NCBI RefSeq assembly: GCF_001592935.1
Contig: NZ_LRDB01000012.1
Location: 186,001-250,000, forward strand
Origin: Roseivirga echinicomitans
GTDB taxonomy: Bacteria; Bacteroidota; Bacteroidia; Cytophagales; Cyclobacteriaceae
DNA length: 64,000 nt
Direction: 5' to 3'
The notes below the pieces were generated by a model. It was not told where the DNA came from. It worked only from the letters and a program-made list of their open reading frames with translations, and searched no databases. Made by a program: the position numbers and the translations under genes. Within the stretch, counting starts at the first letter, position 1, and every line of letters starts with the position of its first letter. This document shows positions 36,301-39,051 of the stretch, piece after piece.

Positions 36301-36342
36301 GGACTAATAGAATCATTGAATAGTTTTGTGCGGATTTTGGAG

Positions 36343-37295
36343 ATGAAGAGAAGAATGAATCGTTACCTACTAGTTATATTTATTTTACTGACCTCTATTT
36401 CGATTGTTAACGGGCAAGACGAGATTGATTTCTTGTTGCCGCCCGATTCGGAGCCACCACCAGCGGACACGATTAAATACTGGAAGAATGGGGGTAATTT
36501 CAATTTCAACCTTCAACAAGTAGCACTGACCAACTGGGCTGCCGGAGGGGAGTCTTCAATTGCTATTGGGACAAAATTCGAGACCTTTGCCAATTATGAG
36601 AAGGAGGGGGCGGTATGGCAAAACCGTTTTAAAATTAGTTATGGTTTAATCAGAAATGGTGATGCTAAGAGCCGCTTTGTTAAAACAGATGATCAAATTC
36701 TCCTGAATTCTAAATACAGCCAGAAGTTCACTGAAAAGGTGCTTTTGACAACTTCTATTAACTTCCAAACCCAGATGGATGAAGGGTACAAGAATAAAAA
36801 GATAGCAGGAACAGGTGAGATAGAGCGTATATTGATTTCAAACTTTATGGCACCTGGTTATTTGCAAGCTTCTCTTGGGCTTTCGTATAGAGAGATGAAA
36901 AAACAGTGACAGCTACTTTGGCCCCCTTTACAGGGTGTTTTACCTTTGTGCTGAATGATTCTCTTTCTAATGCGGGTGCTTTTGGTATTAACCCAGGGGA
37001 TCAAATCAGACCCGAAGCAGGGATAAGTTTAGCAGGTACCTATAAGAAAGATGTGCTGGAAAATGTATCCTTTTTGGGGAACTTCAACCTCTTCTCTAAT
37101 TATGAGAAATTCCCAAATACCGTAGTTAACTTGGAGGCTTCTTTTAAACTAAAGGTGAATAATTACCTTTCTACCAATATCAGTTCTCAGTTGATTTATG
37201 ATGATGATATCACACTTACCCGTAATGATGGAACCAAGGGGCGTGATATTCAGATCAAGAATGTAATCAACGTGGGGGTTACGCTGGGCTTTTAA
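36343..37295 (+). pseudogene. DUF3078 family protein, frame broken at A6
   Basis: ATG 36343 (after GGAG) starts a signal peptide protein, YLLVIFILLTSISIVNGQ. The first frame ends at TGA 36907-36909, but the -1 frame continues from the A6 run at 36898-36903 and gives DUF3078-like TVTATLAPFTGCFTFVLN to 37295. One extra A would give a 317-residue protein. The N-terminal part has the family pattern WKNGGNFNFNLQQVALTNWAAGG, beta-barrel-like. DUF3078 proteins are secreted or outer-membrane beta-rich proteins of unknown function. It may be a real lesion or a homopolymer read error. It converges with dnaX, stops overlapping by 3 bases. Confidence 0.7.
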
Positions 37296-37954
37296 AACTC
37301 GGGGTCTAAACCTAACCGTTCTTGAAGGTCTTTTAAAGCAGGGTATTTCTTCTTTAAGTGTTCGAACTTCTCTTTATCAGTGTAAAGCATTTTCTCTCGA
37401 GCTACATCAACTACTTCTGATTTTAGAATTACGCTGTCATTTTCAAGCCCATCTCTCAAAGCCATCAGTAAGTCACCTCTGAATTTCTCAAAACTAGATT
37501 CAGCCGCCCCATTCGATATTTTTATGGTAACAGTATTGCCTTCCAGTTCATAGGGTTCTTGCAGAAGAAGCAATTCCAACTTGTTATCCTCTTCTTCTCT
37601 TTTAGCCTTAAAAATATTCCAAATGCTGTCTAAATTTTCAAGAGTAAAGTCCTTGTTTCGATTTGAAACGGGCTCTGCTGGGACTTCTCCTTCTGTCGGT
37701 TCTTCCTTTTTGTTGAGTTGATTTTTTAAGTCAGAAAGAGAAGGGATACTAATGGTTTTAGAAGGAGCTCTTGATGGAGTTTTAGTCTCAGGCTGAGGTG
37801 TTGGGCTCACTTGTTGAGCTAGTGCTTCACTTGGGGTCTCTTTAGCTTCCTCAACTATTGGTGTTGCTAGAACAGGCTTTATCTCTGGCGCTTCTTCCTT
37901 AGGGGCTAGCGGTGCTTTTGTTTCCTCGACCTCTTCAGTTAGGATTTTTTTTTT
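37292..37954 (-). CDS. dnaX: DnaX tau-specific C-terminal region, reached by -1 shift at A10
   Basis: This is the -1 frame continuing from the A10 run at 37945-37954 on the minus strand (ATC CTA ACT after it) without stops for about 215 residues to 37292. It contains a Pro/Glu/Lys-rich linker (PKEEAPEIKPVLATPIV), then the conserved-looking domain LENLDSIWNIFKAKREEEDN and ENDSVILKSEVVDVAREKMLY, the position of the domains that bind DnaB and polymerase alpha in tau. Read with the upstream frame it makes a full tau of about 586-598 residues. Confidence 0.75.
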   Translation of the reverse strand, partial: KKKILTEEVEETKAPLAPKEEAPEIKPVLATPIVEEAKETPSEALAQQVSPTPQPETKTPSRAPSKTISIPSLSDLKNQLNKKEEPTEGEVPAEPVSNRNKDFTLENLDSIWNIFKAKREEEDNKLELLLLQEPYELEGNTVTIKISNGAAESSFEKFRGDLLMALRDGLENDSVILKSEVVDVAREKMLYTDKEKFEHLKKKYPALKDLQERLGLDPEF

Positions 37955-39051
37955 GAAGCGTCTTCTGGTGCAACCTGTGCCAAACGAATGGCGGACGTAA
38001 GGTGCGCCATTTTCACTAGAGCCAGTTCAACGTGAAGTCGTTGGTTTTTGCTGCCTTTATAACTTAAGTCGCATTGATTGGCAATGTTGAGGGCCGTAAG
38101 TAAGAACGATATCGGAGTGACATCGGCTTGGGCTTTGTAACGCTGCTTAATATTGTCAGAAACTTGGAGCAACTGAATGGTCACATTGTCTTTGCAGACC
38201 ATTAGATCTCTTAAATGGCTGGCCAGTCCCACAATAAAATGGTGGCCGTCAAAGCCATTTCTCAGAATTTCATCAAAAGTCAACAACACGTTAGAGGTGT
38301 CTTCTTTTAAAAGAAACTCCGTCATTTTGAAGTAATAGTCGTAATCTAGAATGTGGAGGTTCGAGATTGTGTTTTGATAAGTAACCTTCTGTCCGTGCGA
38401 AAAAGTAACGATAAGGTCGAACAGAGAAAGCGCGTCACGCATTGCGCCATCGGCTTTTTGGGCAATGAGGTGAAGTGCCTCCTCTTCCGTATCAATTTTC
38501 TCCTTATCAGCAATCATTTTGAGCTGAGTAGAAATGTCGCTGACTTCAATTCTGTTAAAATCGAAAATCTGACAACGGGAAAGAATCGTAGGGATTACCT
38601 TGTGTTTTTCAGTGGTAGCCAAAATGAAAATGGCATAGGATGGAGGTTCCTCCAATGTTTTCAAAAAAGCATTAAACGCTTGATTCGAAAGCATGTGAAC
38701 CTCATCTATAATATATACTTTGAATTTCCCTTGTTGAGGAGGGTATCGTACCTGATCGATTAGATTTCGAATATCATCTACCGAGTTGTTAGATGCTGCA
38801 TCAAGTTCATATATATTAAAGGTGTCGTTGCCTTCTAAAGGATTGTCAATGTTTTGATCATTGATCATTCGGGCAACGATTCGAGCACAAGTGGTTTTGC
38901 CGACCCCTCTTGGTCCGCAAAAAAGCAAAGCTTGTGCTAATTGATTATTATCGATCGCATTTTTTAGTGTAGTAGTAATATGCCCTTGTCCAACTACTTC
39001 TTCAAAGCCAACGGGTCTATACTTACGTGCGGAGACAACAAAATTTTCCAT
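37939..39051 (-). CDS. dnaX: DNA polymerase III subunit gamma/tau, zero-frame product ending at A10
   Basis: AAA+ clamp-loader. Start chosen at ATG 39051 (ENFVVSARKYRPVGF), the family start; an ATG at 39087 adds 12 residues. Walker A LLFCGPRGVGKTTCAR, Walker B VYIIDEVHML, sensor 1 ILATTEKHKVIPTILSRC with the SRC arginine finger, then DnaX domain III to about residue 360. The zinc-binding Cys cluster of E. coli DnaX is not seen between ARIVARMI and FNIYELDAASNN. In frame, GCT TCA A9 codons and TCC TAA end the protein straight after the A10 run. It loads beta clamps onto DNA and, as tau, links polymerase cores. Confidence 0.92.
   Translation of the reverse strand: MENFVVSARKYRPVGFEEVVGQGHITTTLKNAIDNNQLAQALLFCGPRGVGKTTCARIVARMINDQNIDNPLEGNDTFNIYELDAASNNSVDDIRNLIDQVRYPPQQGKFKVYIIDEVHMLSNQAFNAFLKTLEEPPSYAIFILATTEKHKVIPTILSRCQIFDFNRIEVSDISTQLKMIADKEKIDTEEEALHLIAQKADGAMRDALSLFDLIVTFSHGQKVTYQNTISNLHILDYDYYFKMTEFLLKEDTSNVLLTFDEILRNGFDGHHFIVGLASHLRDLMVCKDNVTIQLLQVSDNIKQRYKAQADVTPISFLLTALNIANQCDLSYKGSKNQRLHVELALVKMAHLTSAIRLAQVAPEDASKKKS

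Follow-up and report, generated by a model that had tools for sequence, protein, structure and literature searches.

Predicted transcriptional slippage at a ten-adenine run in dnaX of Roseivirga echinicomitans and its relatives in the Bacteroidota

The dnaX gene in the window (the whole 64-kb stretch of Roseivirga echinicomitans DNA that was analyzed) very probably gives rise to two clamp-loader subunits, gamma and tau, by transcriptional slippage at a run of ten A residues (A10). Beyond this locus, we consider it moderately probable that most sampled Bacteroidota dnaX genes hold a slippage site that is indifferent to frame. In such genes, runs of A9 to A11 would spread transcripts over all three frames and yield gamma and tau wherever the tau frame lies, while the tau frame itself would have drifted, with at least 51 switches; one genus (g15) would have exchanged this site for a ribosomal signal of the Escherichia coli type (GGAGG placed ten bases ahead of A AAA AAG), a passage from transcriptional to translational recoding within one family. 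The preliminary description had proposed that slippage at A10 lets a single gene supply both subunits, possibly as a Bacteroidota example, and this stands as the best reading of the sequence. The elements of the locus are as follows.

37939..39051, minus strand: dnaX zero frame (gamma, 370 amino acids, ending SKKKS-stop), from the open reading frame, TIGR02397 and NF011531, with the start taken from the alignment.
37945..37954, minus strand: A10 run, the proposed slippage site, read directly and the same in 18/18 genus loci.
37939..37941, minus strand: zero-frame stop TAA, one codon past A10, with a stop at equal spacing in 18/18 genus loci.
37292..37944, minus strand: -1 frame with linker and tau C-terminal region, entered only via a frame change, open for about 217 codons past the run and matching positions 418 to 612 of 614 in NF011531.

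On the minus strand, dnaX extends from the ATG at 39051 to the TAA at 37939 (370 codons), and its zero frame ends with GCT TCA AAA AAA AAA TCC TAA. The -1 frame remains open until a stop at 37292 and, by itself, matches the tau end of NF011531 with an E value of 5e-21. Thus, the A10 run with a zero frame closing in TCC TAA, as well as the long -1 frame with a tau-like C terminus, were found as described previously. The zero frame scored 386 bits against TIGR02397, over its cut-off, and 655 bits against positions 1 to 365 of NF011531, slightly below the full-length cut-off of 685; the closest solved chains for its protein are DNA polymerase III gamma/tau. The listed open reading frame begins upstream at a TTG, but relatives align from the ATG at 39051 instead, and M1 is invariant across 15 aligned sequences. 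The gene is present in a single copy, two other matches in the genome being weak (E about 1e-10), and a comparison with phage DNA gave weak partial matches only.

The A10 of dnaX is the sole A/T run of at least 9 within the 64-kb window, and the whole genome contains nine distinct runs of at least 10 A (12 overlapping matches). Among the other eight long A runs, one, a further A10 (L366, G000:C1:516256-516265), lies within a 270-codon forward frame and one within a 115-codon forward frame, and two are located close to the start of a long opposite-strand frame.

According to the proposed mechanism, RNA polymerase would copy A10 into mRNAs of differing A number. Transcripts with ten A (or 9, 12, and so on) would reach a stop right after the run and yield gamma of about 370 amino acids, and those with one extra A (or two fewer) would carry translation from the gamma frame into the -1 frame and yield tau of about 585 amino acids. 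The two non-tau frames of the gene in the window are stopped 1.0 and 2.3 codons past the run. That the polymerase slips here, that the products arise in a certain ratio, and that both proteins are produced and used is what we infer from this arrangement. By analogy, the slippage at A9 in Thermus (PMC1088944) and the prediction for A10 genes (PMC3711429), as given in the accessible text of both papers, speak for slippage at this site.

The comparison of the run in related genomes, suggested in the preliminary description, revealed its wide conservation. A dnaX match was obtained in 18 of the 19 genus genomes, including that of the window, and the one miss was an 80% complete genome. In each of these 18 loci, exactly A10 is followed by one sense codon and a stop, tau lies in the -1 frame, and the third frame is stopped within 2.3 to 4.3 codons. 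In overlapping sets, dnaX was found in 188/196 family, 115/118 order, 87/89 class, and 97/99 phylum genomes, and junction DNA was read for part of the genomes with matches. A run of at least 9 A was present at 282 of 318 junctions across the phylum: 18/18 in the genus, 89/93 in the rest of the family, 37/43 in the rest of the order, 53/58 in the rest of the class, 16/26 in the rest of the phylum, and 69/80 in named genomes. Left out of this census were 8 duplicates, 2 loci whose contig ended first, and the fragment L111; since two loci were counted twice (L253 = L103 and L252 = L160), the distinct junctions number 316 and the runs 280. The family loci comprised the best matches of the search (30 each) and 60 hand-picked ones, with single-frame genes included on purpose, so that the frame proportions there are no random sample. 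Carriers of the run include Pedobacter, Mucilaginibacter, Hymenobacter, Dyadobacter, Flavobacterium, Chryseobacterium, and Chitinophaga.

At 36 of the 318 junctions, the run was absent at the scanned place. These include records titled Bacteroides, Prevotellaceae, Bacteroidaceae, and Bacteroidales, and one of them (L201) is at a contig end. In two others, L167 and L272, a displaced A10 was detected at about codon 456 and about codon 453, respectively, where stops again close the two remaining frames, at 1.0 and 3.7 codons; it is a putative relocated slippage site. Four dnaX genes from Bacteroides, Prevotellaceae, and Bacteroidaceae records (L297, L300, L319, and L324) consist of a single frame, with no run and no listed -1 heptamer in codons 340 to 470. 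In these four, gamma may be absent or made in another way.

For the analysis of frames, we used the 277 loci that have a run and in which the tau frame, defined as the longest open frame, could be read; duplicates and five loci in which the tau frame is broken or the contig ends (L071, L112, L168, L207, and L310) were removed. A tblastn search with the tau end from the window agreed with the longest frame in 192 loci, gave no match in 82, and disagreed in 3 (L085, L104, and L298). The run was A10 in 225 loci, A9 in 34, and A11 in 18, and tau was in the -1 frame in 148, in the zero frame in 122, and in the +1 frame in 7. On a FastTree phylogeny of the gamma proteins (276 labelled rows), the tau frame changed at least 51 times, compared to 86 to 102 switches in 20 label shuffles. 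The length of the run is thus conserved, whereas the tau frame is not.

The stops behind the run are also conserved. In the 277 loci, the farther non-tau stop was at a median of 3.7 codons past the run vs. 18.8 further along the same linker, and it came earlier than the local median in 274 loci, a count whose P value overstates the effect, related loci not being independent of each other. Both non-tau frames were stopped within ten codons in 264 loci; in the 13 exceptions, a non-tau frame was open for 10.3 to 17.7 codons, and for 86 in L211. The +1 frame was stopped before its local median in 137/148 loci with tau in -1 and in 108/122 with tau in zero. The seven loci with tau in +1 (L023, L146, L189, L190, L209, L292, and L314) are the sharpest cases for frame indifference; two of them, L023 and L314, could be sequencing errors, each carrying A9 whereas a similarly flanked relative (L025 and L312, respectively) carries A10.

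Outside the run, the mean share of AAA among Lys codons was 0.66. At average codon use, three consecutive AAA are expected in 0.33 of genes with Lys-Lys-Lys, about one-third of such genes, so that in A-rich genes the run by itself does not settle the question. Still, genes that prefer AAG also have an uninterrupted run, as in L240 (AAA share, 0.08) and L266 (0.10), both with A10.

Transcriptional slippage, as in Thermus, is favored over -1 ribosomal frameshifting by the indifference to frame, the unbroken length of the run, and the stops in the two non-tau frames. The maintenance of 9 to 11 A, the use of either direction, and the early non-tau stops fit a polymerase that would spread its products over three frames. 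Frame switches would be tolerated because a change of length in the DNA would merely reshuffle which transcripts give which protein.

The alternative that survives best, though we regard it as unlikely, is that tau is made by programmed -1 ribosomal frameshifting at A AAA AAA from uniform transcripts. The direction in the window is indeed -1, the heptamer is present, and A AAA AAA can itself shift. Furthermore, SD-like tetramers are in weak excess upstream of the run loci (0.19 vs. 0.09 in the control), and genus g15 of the same family carries a signal resembling that of E. coli. However, GGAG, GAGG, and AGGA are all absent from the 30 bases upstream of the run in the window. A -1 ribosomal slip requires seven bases and one direction, but 9 to 11 A are kept, other loci combine this run with tau in the zero or +1 frame, and the +1 frame is stopped early, though a -1 slip never enters it.

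Downstream structure was analyzed with a folding sample capped at 70 loci from the family and 60 with tau in the zero frame. The z score downstream of the run ranged from +0.03 to -0.62, slightly lower than at control offsets (-0.35 to +0.05), which speaks against slippage. In the window's own genus, the mean z of -0.5 to 0.0 by offset (n = 18) indicated no clear structure, a result to be read with the low power of this test, in which the E. coli dnaX control scored no lower than -1.5, and +0.5 at other offsets. An Rfam search at the junction gave no match in six loci, four of them from g15, at E values up to 10.

A second tRNA-Lys (CUU) is named, in the available part of Atkins et al. 2016 (PMC5009743), as a factor favoring transcriptional slippage. 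Our first tRNA-Lys patterns were too strict (0/38 and 10/38 genomes). With a looser pattern, tRNA-Lys(CUU) was detected in 0/19 own-family genomes, g15 included, and in 3/28 overall; ARAGORN called two of these three finds tRNA-Lys and one not. The same looser pattern detected tRNA-Lys(UUU) in 26/28 genomes and, being imperfect, missed it in 2 of the 19 own-family genomes. Since tRNA-Lys(CUU) was not found in the 19 own-family genomes, tRNA supply does not exclude ribosomal slippage, a point on the side of the ribosomal alternative. As the supply pattern did not separate the mechanisms, tRNA-Lys(CUU) was dropped as a discriminator.

The E. coli-like signal in g15 was found in all five loci of this genus (L107 to L111). 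Each has GAA AAA AAG followed by a stop (TAA or TAG), a tau encoded in the -1 frame, and GGAGG ten bases before A AAA AAG. The codons over GGAGG vary (CTG, TTG, TCG, or GTG, then GAG, then G..), and GGAGG is present upstream in 5/5 g15 loci vs. 10/277 run-keeping loci. Folding downstream was stronger than in the genus of the window, with a mean z of -2.6 to -1.1 by offset and 2/5 loci below -2. The g15 motifs contrast with the rest of the family, in which, as counted above, nearly all junctions outside the window's own genus keep at least 9 A. From these motifs, it is likely that g15 switched to an E. coli-type ribosomal mechanism. A tmRNA gene is located near dnaX in L107, L108, and L109. L143, from another family, also carries A AAA AAG, and its tau occupies the zero frame as in E. 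coli.

Phase variation, in which the DNA length of A10 would change and tau would be on or off between cells, is very improbable. Long homopolymers are mutable, and the run varies from 9 to 11 among relatives; however, it is exactly A10 throughout the genus, and early stops in both other frames are unnecessary for switching. Moreover, tau is expected to be required in each cell cycle, as follows from general knowledge of the replisome. Least probable of all, to the point of being negligible, is a sequencing or assembly error in an otherwise ordinary single-frame dnaX: homopolymers are prone to errors and an adjacent gene has a frame break specific to this genome, but the same A10 with a stop at the same place recurs in 18/18 genus loci, including five whose assemblies comprise 4 to 10 contigs, the run is 9 to 11 long over 277 loci, and stop placement is nonrandom. 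The missing base against which the preliminary description had cautioned is thereby ruled out, and, as far as the comparative sequence data allow, the error reading is refuted.

The adjacent break, one of two that had been named, was indeed present. It splits what we take to be a DUF3078-like gene (36316-37295, plus strand), the frame changing close to an A6 run. In relatives, 7 were tried and 5 matched (L004 to L008), and all five read this gene in a single frame. Its break is specific to this genome, which points to a recent mutation or an assembly slip.

The breadth and the frame indifference of the dnaX run are its striking aspects. Slippage in dnaX, represented in the cited literature by Thermus and a short predicted list, would be common in a large phylum, and conservation across the phylum argues for the importance of having both subunits. 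At such runs, gene-prediction software would break up or cut short a gene that is essential for replication. The indifference to frame provides a natural test of polymerase vs. ribosome slippage, and g15 provides a matched contrast inside one family. The phylum-wide survey, the frame indifference, and the g15 exchange were not met in the literature searched, most subscription papers being outside its scope.

In E. coli, dnaX uses a -1 ribosomal frameshift at A AAA AAG. Of the two precedents invoked in the preliminary description, the transcriptional one of Thermus, rather than this ribosomal one, is mechanistically the closer. The E. coli gene is alike in that it gives rise to two clamp-loader proteins through a change of frame at an A run that encodes Lys. 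It differs (L365, K-12) in having tau in the zero frame, AGGGAG ten bases before the heptamer, and a predicted downstream hairpin; the window has no in-phase A AAA AAG (TCA AAA AAA AAA TCC) and no SD-like element.

In Thermus thermophilus, according to the accessible text of PMC1088944, transcriptional slippage at A9 spreads the dnaX products over the frames. Shared with the window, by this text, are a long uninterrupted A run (at least 9) and non-tau frames stopped close by. The arrangement is the reverse: the zero frame of the Thermus gene encodes tau, and it is gamma that depends on slippage. Relatives within the phylum show both arrangements, the Thermus-like one (tau in zero, 122/277) and the reversed one (tau in -1, 148/277). 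The reversed arrangement is ascribed to many fewer bacteria in the available part of PMC5009743.

The closest known case is in Antonov et al. 2013 (PMC3711429), whose accessible text lists 17 dnaX genes of the two-ORF type, drawn from 12 genera; nine of them carry A10, and transcriptional slippage is proposed for those with A10. As in the window, gamma is encoded in the zero frame and tau in the -1 frame, tau needs recoding, and the junction of these nine is A10; by this text, nothing essential differs. Since slippage in such genes was already predicted there, the locus belongs to a known gene type. What the present analysis adds to the accessible text of that study is the breadth of the survey, the frame indifference, and the non-tau stops tested against a local null.
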